Assembly: GCA_017303415.1 (NCBI GenBank)
Contig: JAFLBJ010000003.1
Location: forward strand, 62,001 to 126,000
Direction of reading: 5' to 3'
DNA length: 64,000 nucleotides
Origin: Chitinophagales bacterium
GTDB taxonomy: Bacteria > Bacteroidota > Bacteroidia > Chitinophagales > Chitinophagaceae
Of this stretch, positions 3,131 to 58,838 are shown piece by piece; within the stretch, counting starts at the first letter, position 1, and every line of letters starts with the position of its first letter. Position numbers and translations under genes: made by a program. A model generated the notes under the pieces. That model ran no database searches, was not told the DNA's origin, and worked only from the letters and a program-made list of their open reading frames with translations.

Positions 3131-3254
3131 TGGATGACGGAGAGCAGATGACGGATGACGGATGACAGATGTCGGAGGTTGGATGTCGGAGGTTTGGAGT
3201 AGAAAAGCCAGAACCCCGGACAACCGTCATCGGTCATCGGTCATCTGTCATCCA
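3131..3254. repeat. Heptad-word palindrome, GGATGAC family
   Basis: The left arm reads as consecutive 7-mers (ggatgac, ggagagc, agatgac, ggatgac, ggatgac, agatgtc, ggaggtt, ggatgtc). The right arm is their complement (gtcatcg, gtcatcg, gtcatct, gtcatcc). The arms can fold into a long imperfect stem. It sits between the WecA-like gene and frr. Confidence 0.85.
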
Positions 3255-3257
3255 ATA

Positions 3258-4415
3258 TCAACTATTAACCGGAATTTTCTCCACCTGATAAGAATAAGAG
3301 TCCTTGGTGATCTTCGGAATCGCTCTTTCGGCTTTTTGACGGGCTTTTTGTTTGCGGGCGCCGAGGATATAGAGCCATTGGAAAACCAGGAACAGGGCTA
3401 CCACATACCCAAGCACACCAATGGAAGCGGCGGCTGTCCAGGCAATGGTATCGGTCATCAGAAGAACGGCGATCGGGAAAGAAAGAAGGCTGGTACCGAT
3501 CAGTACATAAGCTACCTGACGGTCTTTCAACCCGAGATAGGCCAGGTGGTGTGTAATATGGTCTTTCCCGCCAACAAAGGGGGATTGTTTTTTCATGAGC
3601 CGGCGGATGGTTACCGTGGTGGTATCGATCAGGGGAACAATAAAGAACAGGGCAGGAATTACGAAAGGTTTGATCTGGAATACACCCTGATTGCCATCGT
3701 TGAACTGCCAGAAGTAAAGAATGCTGGTAGAGGCCAGGAATACCCCCAGGAACTGGCTACCGGTATCTCCCATATAGATACGGGAGGGACTCCAGTTGAA
3801 ATACAGGAAACCAATGATGGATCCCAGTACACCGACCAGAAGATAGAGATAAAGATTTCCGGATACATTACCTGAAACAAGGGCCACAGTAATAAGTCCG
3901 CCGATGATCAGCGAAGAAATGGAACCCGTGATGGCATCCATATTATCCAGCATATTGATCGAATTCATCAGTCCCACAACCCAGGTAATGGTAAAGAGGA
4001 TGTTGATGATTTCAATATTGGAGATATTGGTCTTGATACCGCAGGCCAACAGTATAACGGCACAGGACACCTGCATCAGGAATTTGATCAGGGGGTTTGT
4101 GTTATAGGCATCATCGGCCAGTCCCATAAGAAAACCAAGCGTGGATGCAGCCATGATCCCGACCATCTGCTTATCCATGACAAAATTCTGTGCCTTGGGG
4201 ATGAGTCCGATGATAGCGATAGAGATCAGGAAAACGATAAAAAAGGAAATACCTCCTACCGAAGGTTTAACGTGAGAAGACCAACGTACCTGCTTAAAAG
4301 CGATGTTGTTTCGGGAACCGAGATTGAAGGAAAATTTGAGCAATAGATAGTTGATCAGAAACGATACTGAAGCCGCAATAATAAAATAAAACAGCAGTAA
4401 AGTTGTCGTAGTCAT
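3258..4415 (-). CDS. WecA/MraY-family undecaprenyl-phosphate sugar-1-phosphate transferase
   Basis: This integral membrane enzyme attaches a sugar-1-phosphate (GlcNAc-1-P in WecA) to undecaprenyl phosphate, the first step in making a lipid-linked glycan. The 385-aa protein has about ten helices and the family motifs in order: LADDAYN (Mg-binding DD, about residue 100), NSINMLDNMDA (NxxNxxDxxD, about 151-161), YMGDTGSQFLG (about 214-224), and HITHHLAYLG (the HxxHH loop, about 286). It is more like WecA/TagO than true MraY, since no mur genes surround it. The sugar specificity is not visible. Last 20 residues are polar and probably cytoplasmic. Confidence 0.88.
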   Translation of the reverse strand: MTTTTLLLFYFIIAASVSFLINYLLLKFSFNLGSRNNIAFKQVRWSSHVKPSVGGISFFIVFLISIAIIGLIPKAQNFVMDKQMVGIMAASTLGFLMGLADDAYNTNPLIKFLMQVSCAVILLACGIKTNISNIEIINILFTITWVVGLMNSINMLDNMDAITGSISSLIIGGLITVALVSGNVSGNLYLYLLVGVLGSIIGFLYFNWSPSRIYMGDTGSQFLGVFLASTSILYFWQFNDGNQGVFQIKPFVIPALFFIVPLIDTTTVTIRRLMKKQSPFVGGKDHITHHLAYLGLKDRQVAYVLIGTSLLSFPIAVLLMTDTIAWTAAASIGVLGYVVALFLVFQWLYILGARKQKARQKAERAIPKITKDSYSYQVEKIPVNS

Positions 4416-4722
4416 AAAGTCCTTTCGTTTGGTCCGTTATTTGGCCGATAGTAGCCGGTGGTTTTTGGATAATTGGATGGTGGCTACAATCAAGAAATAA
4501 CCGGAATTGGTTGCAAAAATAGGCTTCAACCGCCAAGATCAGGAATCACTGATGAACTTTTTTAATGCACATATGTGATTATCATGCGGATATTGGCAAT
4601 TTTGACCGGAATTTACTTAGGGCAAATGCGTGGTTCTTTCAAAAAAGTCAGACATTTGCACCGTTTCCAAAAACGATCATTTGAATTGATTTATTATAAA
4701 AAGTTTAAAATCTCCCCAAAAA
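4416..4722. other. Intergenic region, no gene seen
   Basis: This roughly 300-bp divergent region separates the WecA-like gene (minus) and transketolase (plus). It is AT-rich. I see no convincing coding frame or RNA. It contains a 10-bp palindrome CACATATGTG at 4568-4577, and GACATTTG at about 4652-4659, one mismatch from TAnnTTTG and a possible but weak -7 box for the transketolase gene. The start codon of transketolase follows an A-rich leader. Confidence 0.5.
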
Positions 4723-7288: not shown

Positions 7289-9115
7289 ATGAAGCAGTAC
7301 TCCCGGATTTTCAGGTATCTGTCGCCCTACACAGGGAAGATCACCCTCTATTTTCTGTTCATCCTCCTGAGCATCGTGTTCTCCATCGTGTCCATCGGGA
7401 TGTTGATGCCCTTCTTTGACCTGATCTTCATGAACCCCAAACCGGAATGTGCAGATTGCAGTACCATCACCCAAACTTCCTCCAATCCCCTGATCCAATG
7501 GGTCAAGACCTTTCTGCTTGATTCTATTGGGAAAAAAGGAAAGATCCCAACACTGGGGATGATCTGTATCCTGATGGTGATTTTTATCTTCCTCAAAAAC
7601 CTGACCCTTTATTTATCCTACTATATCCTCAACCCGTTAAAGAACCGGGTAGTGAATAAGTTACGGGAGGACCTGTATGACAAGATCCTTCGGCTACCCA
7701 TTGGTTTTTTTAATGAAAAAAGAAAAGGCGACCTGATGAGCCGGATGACCACTGATGTGGCCGAAGTGGAAACATCTGTTGTCGGGACCCTCGAAGGCTG
7801 GATCCGTGATCCGCTGACCATACTCATTACACTGGGGGTATTGTTTTTTATCAGTCCCCAGCTCACTTCTTTTATCATTGTGCTCCTACCTGTCCTGGGA
7901 CTCGTGATCGGCCGCATTACCCGGTCACTAAAAAAACACTCCCAACGCGTGGCGGATAAATTTGGTGAAACCCTCTCCACACTCGATGAAACCCTGGGTG
8001 GGTTAAGGGTGATCAAGGCATTTAATATTGAAAAGCTGCTGCGAAATAAATTCTTCCGCACCAATGAAGAATTATTGCACTCCAAAAACCAGATCAGTTA
8101 TCGTCGTGATTTAGCCTCTCCCTTGTCAGAGGTCATGGGGGTGGCTCTGTTTTGCGGAGTTCTTTATTTTGGCGGACGATTGGTATTGAACAAAGAGATC
8201 GCCCTGGAAGCTTCTGCTTTCATCGGCTACCTCGGTATTTTTTATAACCTGATCAACCCGGCCAAAACCCTTTCCACCTCCTTTAGCAATATGCGCAAAG
8301 GCACGGCTGCCATTGGTCGTATTGAAGAGATATTGGATACACCCGTAACGGTAGATGACAACCCGAATGGAAAGATCATTGATACATTCAAAGACAGGAT
8401 CGAATTCAGGGGTGTGCGTTTTGCCTATGATGATGCGGTGATCCTGGACGATATCAACCTCGTGATCGAAAAAGGAAAGACGGTTGCCCTGGTAGGTTCT
8501 TCCGGTGCAGGTAAATCCACGCTGGCCGATCTGGTTCCCCGTTTTCATGATGTGACCGCCGGAGAAGTACTGATAGACGGAATCAATATTCGGGATTATT
8601 CGCTTCATTCGGTCAGACAACTAATGAGTATCGTAACTCAGGAACCGATCCTGTTCAATGACACCATCGCCCATAATATCAAACTGGGTATGTCGGATGC
8701 CAGTCAGCAGGAAGTGGAACAGGCGGCGAAAGTGGCCAATGCCCACGACTTTATCATGCAAAAAGAAGCGGGCTACGAAACGAATATCGGAGACAGGGGG
8801 AGTAAATTAAGTGGCGGCGAAAGACAACGCATGACGATTGCCCGTGCCGTACTCAAGAACCCTCCTATCCTGATCCTGGATGAAGCCACTTCCTCACTCG
8901 ATACTGAAAGCGAAAGACTGGTGCAGGATGCCATCAACAATATGATGCAAAACAGAACAAGTATCGTGATCGCCCACCGGCTTTCCACGATCCGGCATGC
9001 TGATGAGATCATTGTGCTGCAAAAAGGCCGTATCGTTGAGCGAGGAAATCACGATCAGTTGATGACACTGAATGGATTTTACAGGCGATTGGTGGATATG
9101 CAGGAAGTGAGGTGA
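7289..9115 (+). CDS. MsbA-like ABC exporter, fused permease and ATPase
   Basis: This is a half-size ABC exporter that would act as a homodimer in the inner membrane; lipid or lipid A flipping is plausible but not proven. From ATG 7289 it is 608 aa. The first about 330 residues hold six helices. The nucleotide-binding domain shows Walker A (GSSGAGKST, about 413), Q-loop (VTQEPILF), signature LSGGERQRMTIARA (about 512-525), Walker B ILILDEATSSLD, and the H-loop IVIAHRLST. An upstream in-frame ATG (7202) would overlap rbfA and is rejected. The last codons and the stop (gtg agg tga) lie inside the following palindromic repeat. Confidence 0.93.
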   Translation: MKQYSRIFRYLSPYTGKITLYFLFILLSIVFSIVSIGMLMPFFDLIFMNPKPECADCSTITQTSSNPLIQWVKTFLLDSIGKKGKIPTLGMICILMVIFIFLKNLTLYLSYYILNPLKNRVVNKLREDLYDKILRLPIGFFNEKRKGDLMSRMTTDVAEVETSVVGTLEGWIRDPLTILITLGVLFFISPQLTSFIIVLLPVLGLVIGRITRSLKKHSQRVADKFGETLSTLDETLGGLRVIKAFNIEKLLRNKFFRTNEELLHSKNQISYRRDLASPLSEVMGVALFCGVLYFGGRLVLNKEIALEASAFIGYLGIFYNLINPAKTLSTSFSNMRKGTAAIGRIEEILDTPVTVDDNPNGKIIDTFKDRIEFRGVRFAYDDAVILDDINLVIEKGKTVALVGSSGAGKSTLADLVPRFHDVTAGEVLIDGINIRDYSLHSVRQLMSIVTQEPILFNDTIAHNIKLGMSDASQQEVEQAAKVANAHDFIMQKEAGYETNIGDRGSKLSGGERQRMTIARAVLKNPPILILDEATSSLDTESERLVQDAINNMMQNRTSIVIAHRLSTIRHADEIIVLQKGRIVERGNHDQLMTLNGFYRRLVDMQEVR

Positions 9116-9356
9116 GGGCGGAGAGGCGGGAGGCGTGAGACGTGAGACGTGAGACGTGAGAGGTGAGAGGTGAGGCGTGAGGCGTGAGGGGTGAATAGTG
9201 AATAGTGAATGAAAAGAGTATTATGCTCACGATTCACCATTCACTATTCACCATTCACCATTCACTATTCACTATTCACCCCTCACGTCTCACGTCTCAC
9301 GATTCACGATTCACTATTCACCATTCACGTCTCACCATTCACGCCTCACGTCTCAC
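9107..9356. repeat. Long heptad-word palindrome, GTGAGAC/GTGAATA family
   Basis: The left arm (9107 to about 9210) is a run of 7-mers (gcgtgag, acgtgag three times, aggtgag, gcgtgag, tagtgaa). The right arm (about 9233-9356) is the complementary run (attcacc, attcact, cctcacg, tctcacg). The loop is about 25 nt. The left arm includes the stop codon of the ABC exporter. The right arm ends about 26 bp before the S9 peptidase start. Confidence 0.9.
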
Positions 9357-9382
9357 AAAACAATCAAAAAACACCCCAAAAT

Positions 9383-11482
9383 ATGAAACGACTTCTAACA
9401 CTTGCCTTCTTCGCTCTATCTCTGGCAGTAATTGGCCAGACGAAAGAAGTAAGTTACCAACAGGCATTTGAGAACGCCCCGATCAAGCTGAGCAAACCAT
9501 TGCCCCAGGTTAGGGATTGGGTAGATGACAATCATTATATTGAAAACCGCAAGGATGAGGCGGATGGAAAAATGAAATTGTTTTCCGTGGATGTAAAAAC
9601 CGGAAAAGCAGTTCCGTATGTAACCGCTTCCACCAATATGGCGCAAAAGGATATGGCCTCTCCCAAGGAGGCTAAAAACCTGACCCTCTCCCCGGATGGT
9701 AAATGGGCGGCCTATACGCTGAACAATGACCTGTATGTAATGGATGTGGCCACTGAACAATCCACCCGCCTGACCACCGATGGCAGTGAGACCATTAAAA
9801 ATGGCTATGCTTCATGGGTTTATTTTGAAGAGATACTGGGCCGTCGTTCGAGATACAAAGCTTTTTGGTGGAGCCCCGATAGCAAGAGCATCTGCTTTAT
9901 GCGTTTTGATGACAGCAAGGTTCCAACCTTTCCGATCTATGTGATCAAAGACCAGCATGGTTTTCTTGAAAATGAAAGATATCCCAAAGCAGGTGACCCC
10001 AACCCCGAAGTACGGATGGGGGTAGCAGATATTGCCACCTCCAAAATAACCTGGGCGGATTTCAATGAAAAAGACGACCAGTATTTTGGTACGCCCAGCT
10101 GGACACCTGATAACAAACTCTGGGTATCCTGGATGAACCGTGGTCAAGACCATTTGAAGATTTATGATATCGCCCTGAACACCGGCGCAAAATCCCTGGT
10201 GTATGAAGAAGAACAGAAAACCTGGATCGATCTGGATCAGGAAGACCGTTTTGAATTTCTTCCTTCCGGAAATGGATTTATTCTTAAAAGCGATAAAAGC
10301 GGATGGGCACAACTTTACCTGCATGACAAACAGGGTAAAGAGATCAGCCGTATCACCAATGGTGAATTCACCGTTGGGGCCATTTATCGTATCGATGAAA
10401 AAAAGAAAACGGTTTATTTCAGCGCCCGCAAAGAGAATTCAGCACGATTTGATCTTTATTCGGCATCCTTTGATGGCAAGAAACTTATCCGCCACTCCTT
10501 TGGTGAATATAGTTTCACCAACATGAACCTATCTCCGAACAACAAATATTTTATCACGACTTATTCCAACCTGACCACACCCAATACCATGGTGCTGATG
10601 GATATGAAAGGGAAGGTGATACGTGAATTGGGTAATGCTATTGGCGAGGAATATGGAGATTTTGCCAAGCCCCGGACCGAGATCGTACGGGTAAAGTCGG
10701 CAGATGGATTATTTGACCTGCCGGTCAAGATCACCTACCCGCTCAATTTCGATCCCTCTAAAAAATATCCTGTCCTGACCAGCATTTACGGTGGACCCAA
10801 TGCAGGTACCGTATATGATCAATGGCGTACTTCGGCCCAGGAACTTTGGTGGGCCAAGGAAGGATTGATCCAGGTAGCTTTTGATAACCGCAGCAGTGGT
10901 CATTTTGGAAAGAAAGGCCAGGATTTCATCCATCGCCAATTGGGGAAATATGAGATCGAGGATTATATGCAATGTGCCAAATGGCTCCGTGGCCAATCCT
11001 TTGTGGACAGTAACCGGATCGGTATTACCGGTGGAAGTTTTGGTGGATATATGACCTGTATGGCGCTGACCTATGGGGCAGATGTGTTTACCCATGGTGT
11101 GGCCAATGCCTCGGTAACCGATTGGCAATTTTATGACACCCACTATACCGAACGTTTCATGGATACACCACAGGAGAACCCTGAAGGCTATAAACTTACT
11201 TCGGTAATGACCTATGCCGATAAACTCAAAGGCACCTTACGCATCATTCATGGCACATCGGATGACAATGTGCATATGCAAAACAGTCTTGTCCTGATCG
11301 ATAAATTACAAGACCTGAAGAAGAGGTTTGAGTTCATGGTATATCCCGGACAGCGGCATGGGATCGGCGGACAGAAGGGTATTCACAACCGGACCGAGAC
11401 TTATACCTTCTTTTATAAATACCTGTTGCAACGCGAGGTGCCGGAGTTTTTTTGGAAAAGCTCGGGGCAGCGGCCGTTTTAG
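9383..11482 (+). CDS. S9-family prolyl (tri/di)peptidyl peptidase, DPP-IV-like
   Basis: This is a secreted or periplasmic serine exopeptidase that would remove N-terminal di- or tripeptides, usually after proline. The 699-aa protein from ATG 9383 starts with a signal peptide (MKRLLTLAFFALSLAVIGQ). A beta-propeller N-terminal domain (to about residue 430) includes the LTLSPDGKWAAYT blade. The alpha/beta-hydrolase domain carries the nucleophile in TGGSFGGYM (Ser about 552), Asp in HGTSDDNVHM (about 627/628) and His in GQRHG (about 659). The pair of glutamates in WVYFEEILGR, typical of the DPP-IV subfamily for binding the peptide amino terminus, is present. The open frame extends upstream into the repeat, but that part is repeat-encoded. 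Confidence 0.92.
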   Translation: MKRLLTLAFFALSLAVIGQTKEVSYQQAFENAPIKLSKPLPQVRDWVDDNHYIENRKDEADGKMKLFSVDVKTGKAVPYVTASTNMAQKDMASPKEAKNLTLSPDGKWAAYTLNNDLYVMDVATEQSTRLTTDGSETIKNGYASWVYFEEILGRRSRYKAFWWSPDSKSICFMRFDDSKVPTFPIYVIKDQHGFLENERYPKAGDPNPEVRMGVADIATSKITWADFNEKDDQYFGTPSWTPDNKLWVSWMNRGQDHLKIYDIALNTGAKSLVYEEEQKTWIDLDQEDRFEFLPSGNGFILKSDKSGWAQLYLHDKQGKEISRITNGEFTVGAIYRIDEKKKTVYFSARKENSARFDLYSASFDGKKLIRHSFGEYSFTNMNLSPNNKYFITTYSNLTTPNTMVLMDMKGKVIRELGNAIGEEYGDFAKPRTEIVRVKSADGLFDLPVKITYPLNFDPSKKYPVLTSIYGGPNAGTVYDQWRTSAQELWWAKEGLIQVAFDNRSSGHFGKKGQDFIHRQLGKYEIEDYMQCAKWLRGQSFVDSNRIGITGGSFGGYMTCMALTYGADVFTHGVANASVTDWQFYDTHYTERFMDTPQENPEGYKLTSVMTYADKLKGTLRIIHGTSDDNVHMQNSLVLIDKLQDLKKRFEFMVYPGQRHGIGGQKGIHNRTETYTFFYKYLLQREVPEFFWKSSGQRPF

Positions 11483-11483
11483 A

Positions 11484-11629
11484 GGTGGGGGTTGGTGGTT
11501 GGATGATGGATGTTGGATGTTGGATGTTGGATGTTGGATGACAAAGGCGGAAAAGGCCGGACTTCGAACTTCTTCCCGATTCTTCGGGACCCGTACCCAT
11601 CATCCAACATCCAACATCCAACCTCCCCT
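11484..11629. repeat. Heptad-word palindrome, GGATGTT family
   Basis: The left arm has ggatgat followed by four or five ggatgtt words and ggatgac. The right arm is catccaa-type words ending acctcccc. A roughly 60-bp GC-richer loop contains its own small hairpin (cccgattcttcggg). It lies between two convergent genes (S9 peptidase and the NarL-type regulator). Confidence 0.85.
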
Positions 11630-11642
11630 ATTACCAAAAATC

Positions 11643-12287
11643 TCAAAGCTTGTGCAACCCGATCTTCACTGCATACAAAGCCAGTGCCACCCGGGTTTTA
11701 ACTCCTAGTTTTTCAAATAAGGTATCCCGGTAGCTTTCGACGGTGCGGGGGCTGCAATACATTTTTTCAGCGATCTCCTTATAGGTAAGCTCGGTACAGG
11801 CGTATTGAAGAAATTCTTTTTCCCGGTTACTGAGTTGATTGGTCACCGTATTTTCTTCGTTGGGCGAAAGGCTTTGAAAAATACGGCTGGCGGCCCAATC
11901 GGAGTAGTAGAACCCACGGGTGGTGAGTGATTCAAGCGCCTTTTCAAGTTCGGCGGGGTGAATATTTTTTTGAATAAACCCGCGGGCCCCGCATTTGATC
12001 ATGCGGAGCAGGGTCTGGTCATCCCCTTGCATGGTCAGGGTCATGACCTGTACACCCGGATGATTTTTATAGATCCATTCGGCAGTTTCGAATCCATCCA
12101 TTTCGGGCATGGAAACATCGAGCAGGACAATATCCGGCACCTGTCCAGTTTGAAGAAATCGTTCCTGGAGGACCCTTCCATTTTCGCATTCGTATAAAAC
12201 GCGGTATTGAGAAAATTGATCAATGATCGAACTGATGGCTTTCGCGATCAGGATATGATCATCGACAATGACAATGGTTTTTTCCAT
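11643..12287 (-). CDS. NarL/LuxR-family response regulator
   Basis: This is a two-component transcription regulator of 214 aa. The receiver domain (1-120) has the acidic pair VDD (residues 8-10), the phospho-acceptor Asp57 in LLDVSMPEMDGF, and Lys in FIQKNIHPAEL. The C-terminal LuxR-type helix-turn-helix (about 150-210) contains LSNREKEFLQYACTELTYKE and SPRTVESYRDTLFEKL. The histidine kinase gene ends 3 bp upstream of this gene's start on the same strand, so the pair is almost certainly cognate and cotranscribed. Targets are unknown; the membrane protein and lipoprotein genes upstream are candidates for the same signalling unit. Confidence 0.93.
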   Translation of the reverse strand: MEKTIVIVDDHILIAKAISSIIDQFSQYRVLYECENGRVLQERFLQTGQVPDIVLLDVSMPEMDGFETAEWIYKNHPGVQVMTLTMQGDDQTLLRMIKCGARGFIQKNIHPAELEKALESLTTRGFYYSDWAASRIFQSLSPNEENTVTNQLSNREKEFLQYACTELTYKEIAEKMYCSPRTVESYRDTLFEKLGVKTRVALALYAVKIGLHKL

Positions 12288-12290
12288 CGG

Positions 12291-13076
12291 TTATTCATCA
12301 GAAGCGAGGTTCTTACCCGGTATCTTGATCTCAAGATGAGTACCCTTGCCTGGTTCACTCCGCAAATTAAAGAATCCCCCGATGAGATGGACACGGCGTT
12401 TCATATTTCCGAGTCCGATCCCACGCGACTGCACATTATCGCTATCAAATCCGATCCCATTATCCGCTGCAGAGAGCAGCAGCCCGTCCGGCATCTCCCG
12501 GAGCTGCAGGGTGATCAAATCGCCCTGGGAATGTTTGAGACTGTTTTGAATGAATTCCTGGACGATCCGTAACAGAAAACTTTTGACCAATACACTTACC
12601 CTACCCTGGTAATCCGAATGAACGGTCGCCCGGCATACACCTGTATCATTCACACGGCCACATTCAAAGGAAAGCAGCTCGGACAAGGAGGCGTCCTGCA
12701 TACGATTATCCGTTAGGGTACGAGACAGGTCACGCAACTCTTCCAGCGAATCATTGAGCACGCTACTCACCTTTTTTAGTCGCTCGGTAAGCACCGGGAA
12801 CTGGTTCTCATACTCCATTTTCTGGGTATAGATCGTGGCTAGGGTCAGTTTCTGGGCCACACTATCGTGAATCTCCCGGCCGATGAACTGCATCGTTTGC
12901 TCCTGGGCATTTAACTGGGTATGGAGTATTTCCAGTTTATGCTGTTCTTCCACCAGCAATTTCTCTTTTTCGTACAATACCTTCCTTCGCCGGTATTGAA
13001 AAATAAACACCAGGATCCCGACCACAAGGATCAGCATCACAATATTGATCAGTATGAGGAAGAGGGTTGTTTCCAT
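12291..13076 (-). CDS. Sensor histidine kinase, NarX/DesK (HisKA_3) type
   Basis: From the ATG at complement 13074-13076 the protein is 261 aa. It has one N-terminal helix (LFLILINIVMLILVVGILVF), a coiled-coil linker (KVLYEKEKLLVEEQHKLEIL), the HisKA_3 phospho-acceptor motif REIHDSVAQKL (His about 74), and an HATPase domain with NSLKHS (N-box), DNGIGFD and GIGLGNMKRRV. There is almost no periplasmic sensor part, so the signal may come from a partner. Its start overlaps the end of the upstream membrane-protein gene by 28 bp, which suggests coupled translation and points to that protein as a sensory partner. A longer start at 13145 is possible but adds no recognisable domain. Confidence 0.9.
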   Translation of the reverse strand: METTLFLILINIVMLILVVGILVFIFQYRRRKVLYEKEKLLVEEQHKLEILHTQLNAQEQTMQFIGREIHDSVAQKLTLATIYTQKMEYENQFPVLTERLKKVSSVLNDSLEELRDLSRTLTDNRMQDASLSELLSFECGRVNDTGVCRATVHSDYQGRVSVLVKSFLLRIVQEFIQNSLKHSQGDLITLQLREMPDGLLLSAADNGIGFDSDNVQSRGIGLGNMKRRVHLIGGFFNLRSEPGKGTHLEIKIPGKNLASDE

Positions 13077-13726
13077 TTTCCCATAATAAATGATAAGGCA
13101 AAGAAAGTGTACATCAGGCAGTTCAACACCATTTGCAGGATCCAATAATGGCTAAAGAATTTTATATACTTGGTGGCCAGGGTATTCCATAATCCAAAAA
13201 AAGGCAGGGTCATCAGGTAAAAGACCAGTAAACCAAGACAGACCCAGAACATCGGCTCCTGTCGGTAATTCAATATCCGGTCACTGCTTATAAACCCGAC
13301 AAAGAATTGTAGGATCAATAAAAGCAGGATGATATTTCCCATGGTATAGGAAAAGGACTGAAACGCTAACCGGGTCTGCTGAAGGAAAAGGAATTCGGTC
13401 CACCAGGCCAGAATATAGACGCCGGCCCCGATATAGGACCAGCGTCTTTGTTTTTGTTCCGCGTATGACCTGGAGAAAAGCCAGAAAAAAAAAAGAAACT
13501 GAAAGGGGATCGCAAAAAAGAAATACATCCGGTACATGGGTTTTACCAAACCAAGCACATGACCCACGTATTCCGCCGTCAATTCTGTCAGGAAGATCAC
13601 ACCCAGATAAAGGGCAAACCATTTCCAGTAATGATGGCGGTACTTCTTCCAGAAGATAATTCCGGTTAAAAAGGCCAGCCCTTCAAAAACATTCAGGGTC
13701 ACCACCCATTTCAGGTAATCACTCAT
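13049..13726 (-). CDS. Uncharacterised multi-pass membrane protein
   Basis: I do not recognise this 225-aa protein. It has about seven predicted helices: NVFEGLAFLTGIIFW, WFALYLGVIFLTELTA, RMYFFFAIPFQFLFFFWLF, YIGAGVYILAWWTEFLFL, GNIILLLLILQFFVGFI, MFWVCLGLLVFYLMTLPFF and LQMVLNCLMYTFFALSFIM. The count and the aromatic-rich helices suggest a 7TM sensor-like fold. Its 3' end overlaps the histidine kinase start by 28 bp and the kinase lacks an input domain, so a role as membrane sensor or adaptor for the kinase is an inference worth testing. The lipoprotein gene lies 18 bp further upstream. Confidence 0.8.
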   Translation of the reverse strand: MSDYLKWVVTLNVFEGLAFLTGIIFWKKYRHHYWKWFALYLGVIFLTELTAEYVGHVLGLVKPMYRMYFFFAIPFQFLFFFWLFSRSYAEQKQRRWSYIGAGVYILAWWTEFLFLQQTRLAFQSFSYTMGNIILLLLILQFFVGFISSDRILNYRQEPMFWVCLGLLVFYLMTLPFFGLWNTLATKYIKFFSHYWILQMVLNCLMYTFFALSFIMGKWKQPSSSY

Positions 13727-13744
13727 ACTGTGAAAACAATTTTA

Positions 13745-14416
13745 TTAATTTCCGGTCGGAAAGCTTCCATCGCCAAAGGGCGGAGGGATCAATCCACCGT
13801 GATTCAATGCCCCGGCTCCTTCATCGCCTCCTCCTTTCATCACCATGCCCTCACCCTTGTTCGCAGCCTGGGCCATATAAGACTTTAGCGGAGTCGGCTT
13901 ACATTTCTGGCTTCCGACATAGTAAGGATCAAAATCGATATTGGTCTTGCCATCTTTATAGGTTGCCGTAATCACCAGGGTCTGGTGGTGGGCGTAAGAG
14001 GAATCAACTCCCATGGCCACACATTGCTTGGCATCCGGGTACTTGGCCATATAGAAATGAAGCCCAAGCCCCAGGCTGTCCAGGTTACAACCTTGTTTAC
14101 ATAAGGTATCCTCGATGGCCCAAATATATTTCTTCAATGTTTCCAGGCTATACCAGATATTTCTTGTGTCCTCATCTTTGGTCACCTTCCCATCCACTCC
14201 GATATGTGATTTATTATAATCCTGATAATAAAGTTGGGTAATCTCCGTGGCCTGAGCAAGGGAGATCATTCCTTCGGCTTTCTGTCCCGAATAATCACGG
14301 GCATGTACGGATGTGCAGGGATTCATTTCGTCGGTGCCTGCCGTCCTTTGCTTACAGGCGTAAATACCAATAAATACCAATGCGATGGCATTTAGGGCCA
14401 CTAATGTTTTTTTCAT
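13745..14416 (-). CDS. Putative lipoprotein, unknown function
   Basis: This 223-aa protein starts MKKTLVALNAIALVFIGIYA followed by Cys, a plausible lipoprotein signal peptide (Cys21). The mature part has four further cysteines (PCTS, LCKQGC, QKC) that may form disulfides, and an extreme Gly/Pro-rich C-terminus (GGGDEGAGALNHGGLIPPP). No known domain is recognised. It is the first gene of the same-strand run that continues into the membrane protein, kinase and regulator, so it may be an extracytoplasmic component of that signalling unit. The 120-bp upstream gap has no clear regulatory motif. Confidence 0.75.
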   Translation of the reverse strand: MKKTLVALNAIALVFIGIYACKQRTAGTDEMNPCTSVHARDYSGQKAEGMISLAQATEITQLYYQDYNKSHIGVDGKVTKDEDTRNIWYSLETLKKYIWAIEDTLCKQGCNLDSLGLGLHFYMAKYPDAKQCVAMGVDSSYAHHQTLVITATYKDGKTNIDFDPYYVGSQKCKPTPLKSYMAQAANKGEGMVMKGGGDEGAGALNHGGLIPPPFGDGSFPTGN

Positions 14417-14535
14417 AAAAGATCAGTTTTAAGATGATGAATGGATGCGTGTCCGCAAATCTATCGTCATTTTTCTTAATCTGACCTCCGTTGAATGAAC
14501 AGTAATCACTCCGTTTTTTAACGGTATTTCATTAC

Positions 14536-15675
14536 TTATTTGAGAACTTCCCGGGAGATAACGAGTTTTTGTATCTCGCTGGTGCCTTCACCAATGGTGC
14601 AAAGTTTGGCATCCCGGTAATGCTTTTCTACGGGGAAATCCTTGGTATAGCCATACCCGCCAAATATCTGGACGGCGTCGGTAGCCACGCGTACCGCCAC
14701 TTCACTGGCATAATACTTGGCCATGGCGCTCACTTTGGTCATTGGTTCCCCACGTTGTTTCAGGTCACAGGCCTGAAGGATGAGCAGTTCAGCCGCAGTG
14801 ATCTCCGTGGCCATGTCGGCAAGTTTAAAGGAAATAGCCTGAAAATTTGATATGGGTTGGTCGAACTGATATCGTTCTTTGGAGTATTGAACGGAAGCCT
14901 CATATGCGCCTTTAGCTATACCCAGGGCCAGTGAGGCAATGGAGATACGCCCTCCATCCAACACCTTAAGGGACTGTTTAAACCCCTCTCCCACTTCTCC
15001 CAGTCGCTGACTATCGGGTATTCTGCACTGATCGAAGATCATTTCAGCAGTTTCGCTGGCGCGCATCCCCAGTTTATTTTCCTTTTTACCCCCACTAAAG
15101 CCAGTGGTTCCACGCTCAACCACAAAGGCAGTGGCATTGTTCCTGGCGCGAGGCTCGCCTGTTCTGGCAATCACTACGGCTATATCTCCACTCCGGCCAT
15201 GGGTGATCCAACTCTTGGTGCCATTCAGTATCCAGTGGTCACCTTCACGAACGGCTGTGGTCCTCATGTTACCGGCATCGCTCCCGGTATTGGGTTCGGT
15301 AAGCCCCCAGGCTCCGATCCACTCGGCAGTGGCCAGTTTGGGAAGGTATTTCTGTTTCTGTTCTTCATTACCAAAGGCCAGGATATGACCGGTGCACAAA
15401 GAATTATGGGCAGCCAGGCTCAGGCCGATGGAGCCACAAACCTTAGCGATTTCTTCAATGATCGATTTATACTCATAATACCCCAAGCCGGCTCCACCAT
15501 ATTTCTCGGGTACCAAAACCCCCATCATTCCGAGTTTTCCCAACTCTTTAAATACCTCCACGGGGAACTCCTGGCTCTCATCCCATTTCATGACGTGGGG
15601 AAGGATATGCTGTCGGGCAAAATCGCGTGCTGTTTGAGCTACCTGATCGGTCAATTCTGATTGTCTAAAATCCAT
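14536..15675 (-). CDS. Acyl-CoA dehydrogenase
   Basis: This FAD enzyme oxidises acyl-CoA to trans-2-enoyl-CoA in fatty-acid or branched-chain amino-acid breakdown. The start at 15675 gives 379 aa beginning MDFRQSELTDQVAQTARDFA. Typical stretches are the FAD-binding WGLTEPNTGSDAG (about 126-138), TKSWITHG, the middle-domain KLGMRASET, and QIFGGYGYTKDFPVEK near the C-terminus. The catalytic glutamate is in GEGTSEIQ (about residue 365), its position in short/medium-chain family members. Chain-length preference cannot be read. A 16-bp perfect palindrome lies 28 bp upstream of the start and probably regulates it. Confidence 0.93.
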   Translation of the reverse strand: MDFRQSELTDQVAQTARDFARQHILPHVMKWDESQEFPVEVFKELGKLGMMGVLVPEKYGGAGLGYYEYKSIIEEIAKVCGSIGLSLAAHNSLCTGHILAFGNEEQKQKYLPKLATAEWIGAWGLTEPNTGSDAGNMRTTAVREGDHWILNGTKSWITHGRSGDIAVVIARTGEPRARNNATAFVVERGTTGFSGGKKENKLGMRASETAEMIFDQCRIPDSQRLGEVGEGFKQSLKVLDGGRISIASLALGIAKGAYEASVQYSKERYQFDQPISNFQAISFKLADMATEITAAELLILQACDLKQRGEPMTKVSAMAKYYASEVAVRVATDAVQIFGGYGYTKDFPVEKHYRDAKLCTIGEGTSEIQKLVISREVLK

Positions 15676-15702
15676 ATTTAAAGAATTATGGGTACGCAAT
15701 AT

Positions 15703-15718
15703 ACTAACAATTGTTAGT
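15703..15718. promoter_or_regulatory. 16-bp perfect palindrome, candidate operator
   Basis: ACTAACAATTGTTAGT is a perfect dyad located 28-43 bp upstream of the acyl-CoA dehydrogenase start. Its size and symmetry fit a TetR/AcrR-type operator, and such regulators often control fatty-acid degradation genes. No regulator gene is adjacent. The site overlaps the place where a -7 box would lie, so binding would repress. Confidence 0.55.
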
Positions 15719-15740
15719 TTTTTGATACACTGCGGGAATC

Positions 15741-16517
15741 TCAAACTTCCAAACTCAGGCCATCATACGCGAGATGGATATGTTGGGGCAGTTCGGATTC
15801 TACTTCGTCATGCAAACCCAACTGGTGGGAAATATGGGTAAAATAAGCTAAGGGTACACTCAATTCCATGACTGTGTCTATCGCCTCCGATAAACTGAAA
15901 TGGGAGATATGTTTCTGTTTACGAAGCGCGTTTAACACCAGCACTTTACTCCCCCTGATCTTATTTTTTTCCTCTTCTTCAATCCGGTTGGCATCGGTAA
16001 TATAGGTAAAGTCTCCGATCCGGAATCCCATAACGGGCATCTTCATATGCCAAACCTGTACAGGAATGATGGGAATATCGCCAATATAAAATGGCTCATT
16101 TGTAAAAGTGTGCAGGTCAAGTTCGGGAATACCCGGGTAGCGGGTGTCAGAAAAAGCATAATAAAAATCACGCCGCAGGGCCTCTTCGGTAAGTGAATCG
16201 GCATACACTTCCATGGGCTTTTTGGAAAAAAAATTAAACGCCCGTATATCATCCAATCCTGCCAGATGGTCTTTATGCGGATGGGTAAAAAGAACAGCAT
16301 CCAGTTTCTTTACCTGCTGCCGGAGCATCTGGTACCTGAAATCGGGACCAGTATCGATGACGAGTGATGTTCTTTCAGAACGGATCCATACGCTGGAACG
16401 AAGCCTTTTATCTTTTTTATTGGTAGAGAGGCAAACCTCACAATCGCAGGCGATCATGGGAACCCCGCTGCTGGTACCGGTGCCAAGAAAAGTTATGGAT
16501 AACGGAGGACAGGTCAC
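15741..16517 (-). CDS. MBL-fold metallohydrolase, PhnP-like
   Basis: This is a metallo-beta-lactamase-fold phosphodiesterase; PhnP relatives hydrolyse cyclic phosphates, but the substrate here is unknown. The family N-terminus SITFLGTGTSSGVPMIACDC is followed by the zinc motif HPHKDHLAG (about residue 80), a structural-Cys set (CDCEVC), a YITDANRI segment and the end motif THISHQLG with its His. No ATG precedes SITFLGTG in frame close by, so a GTG at complement 16515-16517 (Met-Thr-Cys-Pro-Pro-Leu-Ser-Ile) is proposed, giving 258 aa. Further upstream the frame is repeat-encoded. It sits upstream of the acyl-CoA dehydrogenase on the same strand, separated by the operator-like palindrome. Confidence 0.85.
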   Translation of the reverse strand: MTCPPLSITFLGTGTSSGVPMIACDCEVCLSTNKKDKRLRSSVWIRSERTSLVIDTGPDFRYQMLRQQVKKLDAVLFTHPHKDHLAGLDDIRAFNFFSKKPMEVYADSLTEEALRRDFYYAFSDTRYPGIPELDLHTFTNEPFYIGDIPIIPVQVWHMKMPVMGFRIGDFTYITDANRIEEEEKNKIRGSKVLVLNALRKQKHISHFSLSEAIDTVMELSVPLAYFTHISHQLGLHDEVESELPQHIHLAYDGLSLEV

Positions 16518-16537
16518 TGGACGAAGGTACGATGTTT

Positions 16538-16750
16538 GGGGGTTGGATGTTGGATGTTGGATGACAGATGACTGAGGACAGATGACTGAGGATGGATGTG
16601 CGAGACCTCTGGTCTCGCACGTGTCTTCCGTCGCCTCTGGCGACATAAGCTAATAATATTATTAAAAGATGTGCCCTTCAACTCCCTTCCAACATCCAAC
16701 ATCCGTCATCTGTCATCCGTCATCTGTCATCCAACATCTGTCATCCCTCC
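16538..16750. repeat. Heptad-word palindrome with a nested REP-like element
   Basis: The left arm (16538-16597) uses ggatgtt, ggatgac and agatgac words. The right arm (about 16688-16750) is the complementary run (atccaac, gtcatct, gtcatcc). The 90-bp loop holds the two small hairpins at 16598-16644 and an AT-rich stretch. It lies between the MBL hydrolase start and the end of the 89-aa gene. Confidence 0.85.
16598..16644. repeat. REP-like double hairpin, copy 1
   Basis: There are two adjacent perfect stems with 3-nt loops. One is gtgcgagacc-tct-ggtctcgcac at 16598-16620, the other gtcgcc-tct-ggcgac at 16630-16644. The same pair of stems recurs at 17162-17301. The unit is unlike the heptad palindrome around it and is GC-richer. 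Confidence 0.8.
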
Positions 16751-17020
16751 TCAAACCGTCCCTACCCGCTCCAGCACTTCCGCGTACAGCTTCTGTGATT
16801 CGGGGGTCAGGTTTTCGGCTTCGATGCGTAATTGGGGAAGAAGGTCAACCATGGTATTGATGCGACCTTCCATTTGAAGAAATTTATTTAACACGATCAC
16901 TTTTCGTTGCTCCAGAATGCAATATCCGGATTGAAAAGTGCCACGTTCGTAGCGAATGATGTAACCGGCTTCCTGCGCGATGCCTTCAAGTTTATCCAGG
17001 GTCGTTTGATTGTACTTCAT
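16751..17020 (-). CDS. Small protein of unknown function (89 aa)
   Basis: I do not recognise this 89-aa soluble protein. It starts MKYNQTTLDKLEGIAQEAG and contains a short beta stretch (YIIRYERGTFQSGYCILEQR KVIVLNKF) followed by a helical C-terminus (RINTMVDLLPQLRIEAENL and SQKLYAEVLERV). It has normal composition, an ATG start and a clean stop, so it is probably a real gene. It is boxed in by two nested repeat structures (16538-16750 and 17109-17385). No functional inference can be made from the neighbours. Confidence 0.72.
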   Translation of the reverse strand: MKYNQTTLDKLEGIAQEAGYIIRYERGTFQSGYCILEQRKVIVLNKFLQMEGRINTMVDLLPQLRIEAENLTPESQKLYAEVLERVGTV

Positions 17021-17108
17021 GTATTCGTTTCTTCTTCAGTTCATACAAATTTAGGCGGATTGAAGGGGGTTGGAGAGAGGAGTTTTCCACAGGGGAGTGG
17101 GGGGGGGG

Positions 17109-17385
17109 CGGAGGATAGATGACAGATGTTGGATGTTGGATGTTGGTTGGCGGAGGGTGCCTGTGCGAGACCGGAGGTATGGCATGTGTCTCCTGTCGCC
17201 TCTGGCGAAATCTCTTATTATACTGTCAAATTCAATTTATCTTAATTCGAGTCGCCAGAGGCGACAAGATAATGGTGCGAGACCTCCGGTCTCGCACAGC
17301 AAACCCCCACCAACCAACATCCAACATCTGTCATCTGTCCTCCGTCATCTGTCATCTGTCATCTGTCATCAGTCCTCCGTCACTT
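17109..17385. repeat. Heptad-word palindrome enclosing a REP-like element
   Basis: The left arm (17109-17157) has gatgaca, gatgttg and ggatgtt words. The right arm (17304-17385) has the complementary accaacatcc and gtcatct runs. The loop contains the whole 17162-17301 element. The right arm runs up to the stop codon of porX at 17380. A G-rich stretch including a run of nine G (17100-17108) immediately precedes the left arm. Confidence 0.83.
17162..17301. repeat. REP-like/MITE-like inverted pair, copy 2
   Basis: The left unit (17162-17208, tgtgcgagaccggaggt then gtcgcctctggcga) is homologous to the 16598-16644 element. The right unit (about 17250-17301) is the same element in inverse orientation (gtcgccagaggcgac, then gtgcgagacc-tcc-ggtctcgcac). 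They enclose about 40 bp of AT-rich sequence, giving a small element with terminal inverted repeats and no coding capacity. Confidence 0.8.
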
Positions 17386-18936: not shown

Positions 18937-18980
18937 TTAATATTTATTTTAAATAATCTTTGCAGTTCAATTGTTATTAT

Positions 18981-19097
18981 CACGAATTTTAATGAATTAA
19001 CATGAATTGCATGAATTATATGGAAGAAAGGATTTACATCAATACCACAAGTTGGCATTAAATTCGTGTAATTAGTGTTAATTCGTTAAAATTCGTG
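18981..19097. repeat. Inverted repeat of ACGAATT/ATTCGTG words
   Basis: The left arm (about 18981-19020, cacgaattttaatgaatta...) is the near reverse complement of the right arm (about 19059-19097, ...ttcgttaaaattcgtg), with only a few mismatches over about 39 bp and a 40-bp loop. It occupies the divergent promoter region between porX and the HD-domain gene. The same words recur around dtd (61156-61202 and 61930-61968). Confidence 0.8.
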
Positions 19098-19134
19098 TTT
19101 AAAAATTCGTGTCATTAAGTTTGGATCTTTAACT

Positions 19135-20349: not shown

Positions 20350-20360
20350 CTTCAATTCTT

Positions 20361-21410: not shown

Positions 21411-21419
21411 ATCACCGGC

Positions 21420-22505: not shown

Positions 22506-22515
22506 GATTTCCTCC

Positions 22516-22523
22516 TATCTTTG
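22516..22523 (+). promoter_or_regulatory. Candidate -7 box TATCTTTG for lpxC/fabZ
   Basis: TATCTTTG matches TAnnTTTG exactly, 17 bp before the start codon at 22541. The place where a -33 element would lie is the right arm of the palindromic repeat. The leader would be short, about 10 nt. Confidence 0.5.
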
Positions 22524-41607: not shown

Positions 41608-41678
41608 GAGGCGTGAGGCGTGAAGCGTGAGGCGTTAGGCGTGAGACTCAACTGACGACTCACGATTCACGACTCACG
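41602..41678. repeat. GTGAGGC heptad palindrome between nuoB and nuoC
   Basis: The left arm reads gcgtgag, aggcgtg, gcgtgaa, gcgtgag, gcgttag, gcgtgag. The right arm reads gactcac, gattcac, gactcac. The arms pair around a short loop (actcaactgac). It overlaps the nuoB stop codon. The position inside an operon suggests attenuation or mRNA processing rather than full termination. Confidence 0.8.
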
Positions 41679-44504: not shown

Positions 44505-44974
44505 TAAAATATATTAAAGAAGTAGCATCCGCCGTTGGCTCTCTCTGGGCGGGCATGAGGCTGACCGGGAAATATGCCCTGCGGCATGGGAAGGAAAAAC
44601 TGACCCAACAATACCCCGACAACCGGGTGGAACTTGTATTACCCGAACGATTCCGGGGAGAAGTGGTCATGACACACGATACCAACAACGAACACGCCTG
44701 TACCGGTTGTACCGCCTGTGAACTGGCTTGTCCCAATGGCACCATCAAGATCATTACCAAATTCGATATAAGCCCAGAAGGAAAAAAGAAAAAGGCACTC
44801 GACACCTTTATCTACCACCTCGAGCTTTGTACCATGTGTAATCTCTGCATCGAAGCCTGCCCGACCAATGCGATCAAGATGGCCCAAACTTTTGAACACA
44901 GTGTATTTGACAGAAATAAACTGACCAAGAAATTAAACCTGCCCGGATCGAAGATCAGGGAGGGAGTGGAGTGA
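44492..44974 (+). CDS. nuoI: Complex I subunit NuoI (two [4Fe-4S] clusters)
   Basis: NuoI carries clusters N6a and N6b in the peripheral arm. The ATG at 44492 gives 160 aa. Two ferredoxin motifs are intact: CTGCTACELACP (about residues 70-81) and CTMCNLCIEACP (about 111-122). The start overlaps nuoH by 13 bp; a longer frame reaching back inside nuoH is an overlap artefact. The stop codon lies at the edge of a GTGA heptad repeat. Confidence 0.95.
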   Translation: MAFLIKYIKEVASAVGSLWAGMRLTGKYALRHGKEKLTQQYPDNRVELVLPERFRGEVVMTHDTNNEHACTGCTACELACPNGTIKIITKFDISPEGKKKKALDTFIYHLELCTMCNLCIEACPTNAIKMAQTFEHSVFDRNKLTKKLNLPGSKIREGVE

Positions 44975-45112
44975 GGGGAGGCGTGGGACGTGAGGCGTGA
45001 GGCGTGAGGCGTGAGACGTGAATGGTGAATAGTGAATAGTGAATGGTGAATATTATTGTAATAATAAAAAACTTGTATTAAAGCTAACAGCTAATAGCTA
45101 TCAGCTATCAGC
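44966..45112. repeat. Heptad repeats between nuoI and nuoJ
   Basis: From 44966 there is a one-armed run of gtgaggc, gtgagac and agtgaat words to about 45050. I do not see an inverted partner, unlike the other loci. An AT-rich spacer follows, then agctaac, agctaat, agctatc, agctatc (45081-45112). Both word families thus occur at one gap. Confidence 0.7.
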
Positions 45113-45133
45113 CTCTCTTCAAAAGCCAACTCA

Positions 45134-51727: not shown

Positions 51728-51826
51728 TTGTGTTCTTCGTGTCTCCTTTGTGTCCTTCGTGTCCTCCTACGCCAGACTTGCGTAGGAGGACACGAAGGAC
51801 ACAAAGGAGGCACAAAGGACACGAAG
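51728..51826. repeat. GTGTCCTTCGTGTCCTCC-type palindrome, copy 1
   Basis: The arms (51728-51772 and 51780-51826) pair along almost 45 bp around a 7-nt loop (cagactt). The central stem cctcctacgc / gcgtaggagg is shared exactly with the copy at 54878-54988; outer words (cttcgtg, ctttgtg, tcctcc) are reshuffled between copies. Confidence 0.85.
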
Positions 51827-54873: not shown

Positions 54874-54877
54874 CCCT

Positions 54878-54988
54878 TTGTGTCTCCTTTGTGTTCTTCG
54901 TGCCTCCTTTGTGTTCTTCGTGCCCTCCTACGCCAGTCTTGCGTAGGAGGACACGAAGAACACAAAGGAGGCACGAAGAACACGAAGA
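54878..54988. repeat. GTGTTCTTCGTGCCTCC-type palindrome, copy 2
   Basis: This is an almost perfect palindrome with the shared core cctcctacgc / gcgtaggagg and a 7-nt loop (cagtctt). It follows the tpl stop by a few bases, and the convergent nifJ gene ends 73 bp further, so it probably serves as a terminator for tpl. Confidence 0.85.
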
Positions 54989-55060
54989 AATTCAATAAAT
55001 AAGAGAGGCCCCTGGAAAGGGGCCCCACTATTCTTATACTTGTCTTGACTCTTGCCTTGA

Positions 55061-58000: not shown

Positions 58001-58636
58001 ATCGATCATTTGCCGGATCACATCATCGGGGATCACTTCCACCTGGTTCAGTTCATGTGAAGTGCGGAACCCGTCAAAAATATTCAGGAAAGGTACCCGG
58101 GCCTTAAGTGTGGCCGAGGTAGAAATCATGGCCATATCCATGGCCTGTTGTGGGTTGTTGCCAAAAAGCATGGCAAAGCCGGTGGCGCGGGTGGCCATCA
58201 CATCACTGTGATCACCAAAAATGGATAGGGCATGCGTAGCCACCGTACGGGCGGCTATATGAAAAACAGCCGGGGTCAGTTCACCGGCGATCTTGTACAT
58301 ATTGGGGATCATCAGCAGCAATCCCTGCGAAGAGGTAAACGTGGAGGCAAGCGCACCGCCTTGCAAAGCCCCGTGAATGGCACCGGCGGCACCTGCTTCG
58401 CTTTGCATTTCAATGACTTTGGGTACCTCCCCATAGATATTGGTTTGGCCATTACTGCTCCATTCATCCGCCCATTCGCCCATCGAGGAGGATGGGGTAA
58501 TGGGGTAAATAGCGCATACTTCGCTGGTTTTGTAGGCAATATAAGAGGCGGCCTCATTGCCATCCATGATGGCCTTGACTACTTCCTTTTGCCCTGGTTC
58601 TTGTTCCTGGTGGATCGGTTTGGTTATCGTTTCCAT
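55061..58636 (-). CDS. nifJ: Pyruvate:ferredoxin (flavodoxin) oxidoreductase
   Basis: PFOR converts pyruvate and CoA to acetyl-CoA, CO2 and reduced ferredoxin or flavodoxin. The 1191-aa single-chain enzyme matches the NifJ type. Domain I starts YKTSEVCAIYPITPSSSMGE; two [4Fe-4S] motifs occur in the ferredoxin-like domain, CSQCGKCYFVCPH (about 706-718) and CTGCKLCTEVCP (about 764-775). The TPP domain includes GACSGCGETPYLKL and VANATGCSSIFGG with proximal-cluster cysteines, and GGDGWAYDIGFGGLDHVLS (about 1000). It may supply low-potential electrons to other complexes; no ferredoxin gene is beside it. It is convergent with tpl. Confidence 0.96.
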   Translation of the reverse strand: METITKPIHQEQEPGQKEVVKAIMDGNEAASYIAYKTSEVCAIYPITPSSSMGEWADEWSSNGQTNIYGEVPKVIEMQSEAGAAGAIHGALQGGALASTFTSSQGLLLMIPNMYKIAGELTPAVFHIAARTVATHALSIFGDHSDVMATRATGFAMLFGNNPQQAMDMAMISTSATLKARVPFLNIFDGFRTSHELNQVEVIPDDVIRQMIDEEAVSKHRKRALNPEHPIVRGTAQNPDVFFQSREASNIYYNETPGFVKKAMEEFAQLTGRTYHLFDYYGHPEAERVIIIMGSGTGPVHEVTDYLNAKGEKVGYLNIHLFRPFSVADFIQTLPTSVKKIAVLDRCKEPGAIGEPLFMDVINAFHAGWNGPMPKVVGGRYGLASKEFNPGMVLAVYDELKKEQPKNGFTIGIEDDVTHTSLSWNKEFSLEDQHLFRGLFYGLGADGTVGANKNTIKIVGEVTDDYVQGYFVYDSKKSGSLTVSHLRFSEHPIQSTYLINSANFVACHHFNYLKKYDVLKYAEKEATFLLNAPYEATEVWQHLPKKIQEEIIHKQLKFYSINASKVAREAGMGSRINSVLQTCFFAISNVMTRDLAIQYIKSAIKKTYSRKGEAVVEKNYQAVDMTLDNLHRIDYSAYITGEVPIEAPVSVEAPDFVQQVLGKIIAGEGDDLPVSAFPVDGTYPSGTTKWEKRNIADQVPVWDPSLCSQCGKCYFVCPHAAIRVKVYDRDWLADAPAFFKHTDPIGKEFYKDKEAYTLQVAVEDCTGCKLCTEVCPIESKTEPGHKAIDMMDVEPLKEHEKNNWDYFLSLPDIDRTRVNKGTVKGSQLLEPLFEFSGACSGCGETPYLKLLTQLFGDRMLVANATGCSSIFGGNLPTTPWSTDHEGHGPAWANSLFEDNAEFGLGIKLATDKKREMAFHILKHMREEVGSELADAILKNEENSEGELIEQRKYVNELKKRLRTINTEESYRLYQIAEFLEKKSVWIVGGDGWAYDIGFGGLDHVLSTGENINILVMDTEVYSNTGGQKSKASPIGASAKFAVKGKTTGKKDLAMQAIAHGNAYVAQIAMGANDVHALKTILEAEAFPGSSIIIAYSHCIAHGYDMCHGLDQQKLAVNSGYWPLFRYNPLNEKGKRFSLDCKNPTVPLDEFLYHENRFATIKSSNPDMAGQFLNQANEGIKLHWERIEALKQL

Positions 58637-58743
58637 AACAAAGAAGATTTTGATGTGAAGAGGAGGCTAAAGTAGAAATATGCCGGGGGGGAGGGGGTGA
58701 GGAAGGTCAGTCAAATTGCTGATTTTTGGAGGAAACCGGGGAA

Positions 58744-58838
58744 TAATAAGAAATAAGGAACAGAGAAATAAGAAATAAGGAAGTATGGAGGGTCCACTTC
58801 CTTATCTCTTATTTCTCTGTTCCTTATTTCTGATTTCC
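58744..58838. repeat. AAGAAAT/AAGGAAC heptad palindrome
   Basis: The left arm reads aagaaat, aaggaac, agagaaat, aagaaat, aaggaag. The right arm is the complement (cttcctt, atctctt, atttctc, tgttcct, tatttct). The loop is tatggagggtcc. It lies between nifJ and glyS, ending at the glyS stop codon. The upstream stretch 58682-58697 is G-rich. Confidence 0.85.

Follow-up and report, generated by a model that had tools for sequence, protein, structure and literature searches.

The short tandemly repeated repetitive (STRR) sequences of cyanobacteria are direct arrays of heptads, that is, of 7-nt words. Here we analyse intergenic palindromes whose arms are built from heptads paired in inverse orientation, found in a 64,000-nt stretch (the whole of it hereafter called the window; G000:C3:62001-126000) of the genome of a Chitinophagales bacterium (3.72 Mb, 99.99% complete). 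Records of Chitinophagaceae make up most of the matches in a protein search of GTDB genomes. Related systems have been described, as far as the available portions of the cited papers go. In Xanthomonas, GGGAATC heptads occur as convergent inverted pairs, 70 in one genome and 75 in another, with a preference for four units, and lie near or overlapping stop codons on the sense strand, which was explained by G-quadruplexes (PMC4692102). In Geobacter metallireducens, paired "global regulator binding sites" consist of opposite-strand pairs of five tandem heptanucleotides (class 3) or four octanucleotides (class 1); they were read as IHF/HU sites, and insertion sequences lie near some pairs (PMC2700814). 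The TAACTGA heptamers of Beggiatoaceae, Cyanobacteria and Bacteroidetes form mostly direct arrays, often just before start codons (PMC4679880), and BrickBuilt, a miniature inverted-repeat transposable element (MITE) of Porphyromonas gingivalis, has a 23-nt unit and small inverted ends outside the array, and lies at least 49 nt from genes (PMC4596501). Finally, the intervening sequences (IVSs) of 23S rRNA, which carry an S23 open reading frame (ORF) and complementary ends, are located within rRNA helices, from which RNase III excises them (PMC4990558).

The window palindromes share features with each of these. Like the Xanthomonas heptads, they have 7-nt words, inverted pairs and proximity to stop codons, although Xanthomonas uses a single word per genome (PMC4692102); the pitches of the Geobacter pairs, 7 and 8 (PMC2700814), are those of the arms around the S23/IVP genes described below; the TAACTGA repeats are likewise intergenic heptads mixed with other heptamers, in the same phyla (PMC4679880); and BrickBuilt also belongs to Bacteroidota, is intergenic and combines tandem repeats with inverted ends (PMC4596501). 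The likeness to the 23S rRNA IVS lies in the stem-forming complementary ends, the S23/IVP gene in the loop, the similar size and the patchy spread (PMC4990558), whereas the elements studied here follow the stops of protein genes, have tandem-word arms and exist in many gene-less copies. Those of the window lie between protein genes and not within an rRNA gene, and no Rfam family, rRNA included, is found in the window at the gathering score. A preliminary description of this DNA had found no named Bacteroidota element that fits, which is consistent with the open-licence literature searched: paired heptad and octad arrays are already known (Xanthomonas, Geobacter), and in the available portions of these papers no tie to S23/IVP was found. 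We consider it fairly probable that the window palindromes are copies, lacking the gene, of a stem-loop element that at full length has an S23/IVP gene (PF05635) between inverted arms of 7- or 8-nt words, IVP being predicted to recognise the words and drive the spread of the element.

The genome has four PF05635 genes, all with heptad arms, three of them flanked on both sides and one on one side. NCBIfam names all four as four helix bundle protein (TIGR02436/PF05635), and no transposase model matches them (NCBIfam, E≤0.001). Both sides carry arms at L021 (word GGATGTT), L022 (AGCTAAT-like words) and L023 (GGGGTCC, left arm weak), and the words of the fourth locus, L024, are GTGAGGG/GTGAGAC. 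PF05635 is present in 112 of 147 family genomes and in 61 of 80 genomes drawn phylum-wide. We analysed 112 of 114 fetched IVP loci, own genome included, taking an inverted-arm score of at least 15 as the criterion for arms and at least 18 of 28 on both sides as that for lag 7. Inverted arms were found at 99 of the 112, with both-sided pitch at lag 7 in 53 and at lag 8 in 22. Among 400 random positions, 13 had inverted arms, as did 14 of 164 ordinary ORFs of 100-200 aa, and neither control gave a single case of two-sided lag 7 or lag 8. When the left flank of one locus was combined with the right flank of another, 9% reached a score of 15. A Bacteroidota-wide draw of 29 loci (30 fetched, one trimmed; one of them, L367, from the own family) gave inverted arms at 22 and both-sided pitch at lag 7 in 15 and lag 8 in two. 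On plasmids, where 14 of 27 matches were fetched, arms occur at 7 of 13 cyanobacterial loci and at the single Gemmatimonadota one. Purifying selection acts on the IVP gene: for the 72 of 254 pairs with estimable dS, dN/dS has a median of 0.127 and a maximum of 0.247.

In the window, 7 nt and its multiples are the dominant short period, and the same is true of a 464-kb sample of the genome made of the window and 20 evenly spaced 20-kb stretches. Scanning the window for self-match of at least 60% in 70-nt windows at lags 2 to 30, we obtained 806 windows at lag 7 and 634, 367 and 246 at lags 14, 21 and 28, against 10 at lag 20 and none at any other lag. In the larger sample, at self-match of at least 66% and lags 4 to 30, the counts were 1836, 1215, 564 and 222 for lags 7, 14, 21 and 28, then 107 for lag 23, 34 for lag 30 and zero for the rest. 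The preliminary description had listed nine gaps with strong heptad arms and a weaker one, 35290-35398; the lag scan and the inverted-arm search found heptad arms in all ten, that one being weak as stated, and added a locus that had been overlooked, 44971-45117. Its view that the 7-nt step is kept while the words differ between loci is borne out, and so is the contrast that it drew between these paired arms and the direct STRR arrays: inverted arms reach 105 nt, and pairing is far above that of base-shuffled arms in 10 of the 11 window elements (scores 17-52 versus maxima of 4-10). Only 44971-45117 departs from this (score 6 versus 12 shuffled), its arms differing from each other in their words. 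A strict mirror order of words between arms was considered and is weakly indicated at most, being barely above shuffled words (mean z 2.0, n=11).

The 400 kb of evenly spaced stretches hold 24 array groups, weak AT-rich ones included, which extrapolates very roughly to 220 in the whole genome on the same count. In the own sample, all 14 groups with at least two arrays (15 elements if 16525-17386 is split) begin with a G-rich array and finish with a C-rich one, so the arms have a fixed polarity. The word families of the genome are GGATGAC/GGATGTT, GTGAGAC/GTGAATA, AGCTAAT and AAGAAAT. A 20-nt GGATGAC pattern with up to two mismatches has 252 forward and 220 reverse matches in the genome, and its backward control none; a 3.5-kb query with the 22293-22505 element gave 148 own-genome matches including itself, with 40 of 265 candidate stretches scored. 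The preliminary claim that this is not one element copied around thus holds in that there are several word families, and fails within a family, where loci are related copies. Exact 7-mers are shared with own IVP arms by 47 of 51 arrays in the sample (35290-35398, below the array threshold, is outside this set). The partner is L021 for 20, L024 for 20 and L022 for seven, and only one array also shares with a second locus. Mean sharing is 0.375 with own IVP arms versus 0.033 with IVP loci of other genomes, and 30 of the 51 share at least 0.3 where 1.3 are expected. The remaining four have no 7-mers in common with own IVP arms; all are AT-rich, 58744-58838 among them. Such sharing of words suggests that the window palindromes are likely gene-less copies of the IVP element.

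Short, gene-less, multicopy elements whose inverted ends are those of a full-length relative are what is called MITE-like, although in a typical MITE that relative encodes a recognised transposase and here it encodes IVP; copies bearing IVP have the gene in the loop, and the window's own copies have none there. A more conventional source of mobility would be a RAYT or IS200-type transposase (Y1_Tnp) spreading REP-like palindromes. The genome does have four Y1_Tnp matches, but three lack a heptad array within 3.2-3.3 kb and the fourth has one about 850 nt off, so that none of the four is closely flanked by palindromes; we rejected this candidate as highly improbable.

The words and their pitch follow the protein. 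The 81 strong IVP loci were used for word classing, 32 being too weak to class. In 52 of the 81, left- and right-arm words are at most one letter apart, compared with 5.5% between loci. The left arm has more G than C in 72, fewer in six and as many in three, the G-rich strand reading toward the loop. On a protein tree of 105 columns, in which many forks are therefore weak, pitch 7 requires 22 changes versus 37.7 when shuffled and pitch 8 nine versus 19.7, with none of 500 shuffles as low in either case. Word distance decreases as protein identity rises (r -0.48 at pitch 7 and -0.64 at pitch 8; 0 of 2000 permutations). The own L023, here with a 7-nt GGGTCGG-like word, clusters with loci having 8-nt words of the AAGTCGGG kind. 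Left-arm words have a common A-G core, of 5.08 bits at pitch 7 versus 4.03 (sd 0.12) for shuffled letters and of 6.38 bits at pitch 8 versus 4.99 (sd 0.27); right-arm words reach 4.53 and 5.32 bits, respectively. Since pitch clusters by IVP clade and words match those of the own IVP loci, word and pitch would belong to the gene-bearing element. Two further ideas about the words found little use. Five words per arm, matching a pentamer, is only suggestive, as loci had been classed using a 35- to 36-nt window; the medians are 4.4-4.6 at 7 nt and 4.1-4.3 at 8 nt. A role of the words as stop codons in all three frames is not general: stops per nt are 0.0905 versus 0.0859 permuted in IVP arms at lag 7, 0.069 versus 0.0575 at lag 8, and 0.1066 versus 0.0744 in the own arrays.

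This dependence on clade bears on two explanations that do without a word-reading protein. The arrays could be older, independent repeats into whose loops IVP genes merely insert, much as some insertion sequence (IS) elements insert into repetitive extragenic palindromic (REP) sequences. There are many more arrays than IVP genes (24 groups in 400 kb versus four genes), so a chance landing in one would be easy, and the hairpins nested in the loops at 16538 and 17109 are evidence of other sequences arriving there. This explanation is nevertheless unlikely, as word and pitch go with the IVP clade in different genera and IVP arms exist even where a genome matches the tested array pattern rarely or not at all (e.g., no match in G024 and G010). 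The preliminary description had instead offered slippage plus flipping of words by hairpin replication. As an origin in place, with no mobile element, this would account for word mixtures within arms, for arm lengths that vary between loci and for mirrored word order slightly beating shuffled order. It does not predict a gene in the loop, clade-specific pitch or edges at stop codons, and words are shared by many loci across the genome and also occur beside IVP genes, the link between IVP and words being found in independent genomes. We thus regard it as very unlikely to suffice: pitch follows the IVP clade and words match own IVP loci, although slippage probably does explain array length and word mixing.

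Solved-structure relatives of the L022 protein (2gsc, 2rld) have five chains each, and the Xanthomonas S23 protein is a toroidal homopentamer, as given in the available part of its description (PMC4990558). Together with arm polarity and clade-specific word and pitch, a ring-shaped protein suggests that the array may be read by the protein. It might be read as RNA, and IVP is a relative of Avd, the protein of diversity-generating retroelements (DGRs), so that a reverse transcriptase could have copied a stem-loop RNA. Two of the four own IVPs do match the Avd model weakly (24.2 and 23.3 bits, under the cut-off of 80). However, PF00078 has no match in the own, 99.99% complete genome, nor in 97 of 147 family genomes, and this route, which we disfavour, is extremely improbable. 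G-U pairs between IVP arms number 153 versus 158 (p 0.82), and an RNA stem maintained by pairing in the sense transcript was rejected on this lack of wobble excess. Although the biology of the IVS is RNA-based, both the lack of a reverse transcriptase match and that of a G-U bias between arms speak for recognition as DNA.

The elements are found at the ends of genes. With abutment defined as an outer edge at most 15 nt from the stop codon that closes a frame 100 codons long or longer, 64 of 81 IVP elements abut a stop, against 17 and 22 of 810 control positions per edge. Where one edge abuts, the IVP gene runs in the same direction as the stopped gene in 58 of 63 cases. For own-sample elements with a stop side, the figure is 15 of 25 within 15 nt; start-codon calls in this placement scan are unreliable because the arrays themselves are open frames. 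All 11 window elements come within about 8 nt of a stop, from the borders of the preliminary description and ORF ends. Between convergent genes, the elements L034 7981-8029, L039 13191-13333, L042 4477-4701, L044 9543-9790 and L045 13231-13292 stretch from stop to stop to within about 15 nt, and hardly any native spacer is left.

This placement, shared by the Xanthomonas heptads that crowd near stops (PMC4692102; available portion), would also be expected of selected transcription terminators or mRNA 3'-end stems whose words are a by-product of slippage, and five folded stretches are more stable than their shuffles (z -2.8 to -10.9). Yet most own elements occur between tandem as well as convergent genes, no heptad stem is among the terminator-like sites listed for 8900-25000 (23 found, 16.5 expected), the arms show the lack of wobble excess given above, and a sister species has no arrays at the same genes. 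We consider selection as terminators improbable as the origin of the elements; a terminator role for a copy already in place is possible, and the stems, once in place, may well affect transcript ends.

The sister species is G021, of the same genus. Except for a few genes it is collinear with the window, with 65-79% identity. The collinear stretch has no heptad array; a single weak AT-rich array, among the 120 kb fetched, lies outside it. The present genome has 216 matches to the GTGAATA pattern, G021 has one and genomes of other genera (G003, G055, G060) have 198-237; the pattern is found in 47 of 147 genomes. The window elements are recent. Among 11 flanking proteins with a G021 homologue (one beside a weak array at 39724), seven align to the last residue, three are of equal length with altered last residues and one differs (stop at 16751); the gene preceding 22293 has no homologue in G021. 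Genes without an element end alike too, so the intact protein ends show harmlessness and not targeting. The genes at 11643-14416, between the palindrome 11484-11629 and 14536, are missing from collinear G021, so a gene block was gained or lost beside that element.

The mechanism that we propose runs as follows. An IVP ring would bind the word array, probably as DNA, with one subunit per word; pitch would reflect ring geometry, and the letters of the word its specificity. Insertion would be aimed at gene ends, leaving the host protein intact and letting the inner gene ride on host transcription, gene-less copies would be moved in trans, and slippage would afterwards lengthen the arms and mix the words. 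A host enzyme may do the cutting and joining of DNA; both the mobility of the element and its chemistry are what we infer here. Several observations weigh against IVP as the agent. To our knowledge, IVP has no known catalytic domain. Arms inherited together with the gene could produce the link between tree and words even if the protein never touches them, and the loci, being top scorers with a few paired from sister genomes, are non-independent. Inverted arms at threshold are missing from 13 of the 112 IVP loci and, on cyanobacterial plasmids, from 6 of 13; L024 has just a single arm. The AAGAAAT family, including 58744-58838, matches no IVP locus of this genome. No insertion site was resolved to the base and no target duplication turned up; G129 and G040, with gaps of 485 versus 253 nt and 512 versus 78 nt, are too diverged for junctions.

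More tentatively, and at somewhat less than even chances, these elements may represent a widespread mobile element class with no known transposase, in which the pentameric S23/IVP ring would be both cargo and mobility factor and word arrays at 7- or 8-nt pitch the address, with insertion at stop codons and gene-less copies in trans; the 23S rRNA IVS would be its rRNA branch, and GxxExxY nuclease-like genes would head a parallel one whose arms have other words. The small protein S23/IVP is very common and has no known function; word-armed palindromes would give it a testable job. The heptamer and octamer repeats described in separate reports on Xanthomonas, Geobacter and other bacteria would have one explanation in the IVP link, and stop codons are indicated as a safe place for insertion.

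Individually, the window elements with L021 words are five gene-less palindromes. GGATGAC/GGATGTC words at 3131-3254 end at the stop of the minus-strand gene 3258-4415; GGATGTT words at 11484-11629 lie between convergent stops at 11482 and 11643; and GGATGTT/GGATGAC words form 16538-16750, ending at the stop 16751 of a small minus-strand gene, 17109-17385, overlapping the stop 17380 of a minus-strand gene, and 22293-22505, which begins past the stop of ORF 21420-22292. The palindromes at 16538 and 17109 have GC-rich hairpins nested in their loops (16597-16650 and 17160-17300; GTGCGAGACC..GGTCTCGCAC, GTCGCC..GGCGAC), which resemble a smaller repeat that landed there. L024 words build three gene-less palindromes: 9107-9356 (GTGAGAC/GTGAATA), overlapping the TGA at 9113-9115; 23942-24012 (GTGAGTC), overlapping a TAG ending at 23944; and 41602-41678 (GTGAGGC), overlapping a TGA ending at 41607. 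L024 and L022 words meet at 44971-45117, where a GTGAGGC/GTGAATA arm starting at a TGA that ends at 44974 is followed by a non-pairing AGCTAAT-type arm. The weak palindrome 35290-35398 has ATTATTA/GATTATT-like words and ends by the stop 35401 of a minus-strand gene, and the gene-less AAGAAAT palindrome 58744-58838, of the family with no IVP partner in the genome, ends at the stop 58839.

The GxxExxY family (PF13366) was meant to serve as a control, but 23 of its 27 loci (30 fetched, three trimmed) proved to carry inverted arms. Their words are irregular (e.g., CACAGAG, CTTTGCG), with a 7-nt pitch on both sides in 0 of 27; 14 of the 23 with arms abut a stop, all 14 co-oriented. In the window, near-perfect palindromes of CTTTGTG/CTTCGTG type with no 7-nt pitch lie at 51728-51826 and 54875-54989, just past stops at 51716 and 54873. 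Compared by eye, they look like gene-less members of the PF13366 class, also resembling arms around GxxExxY genes of the own genome and its relatives. Another AT-rich palindrome between genes, at 18974-19104, has ATTCGTG/CATGAATT-type words and is possibly a third word class. On cyanobacterial plasmids, S23/IVP of L383, L385 and L388 lies between genes of CRISPR-Cas clusters, twice cas6/cas4 and once cas10/Cmr3.

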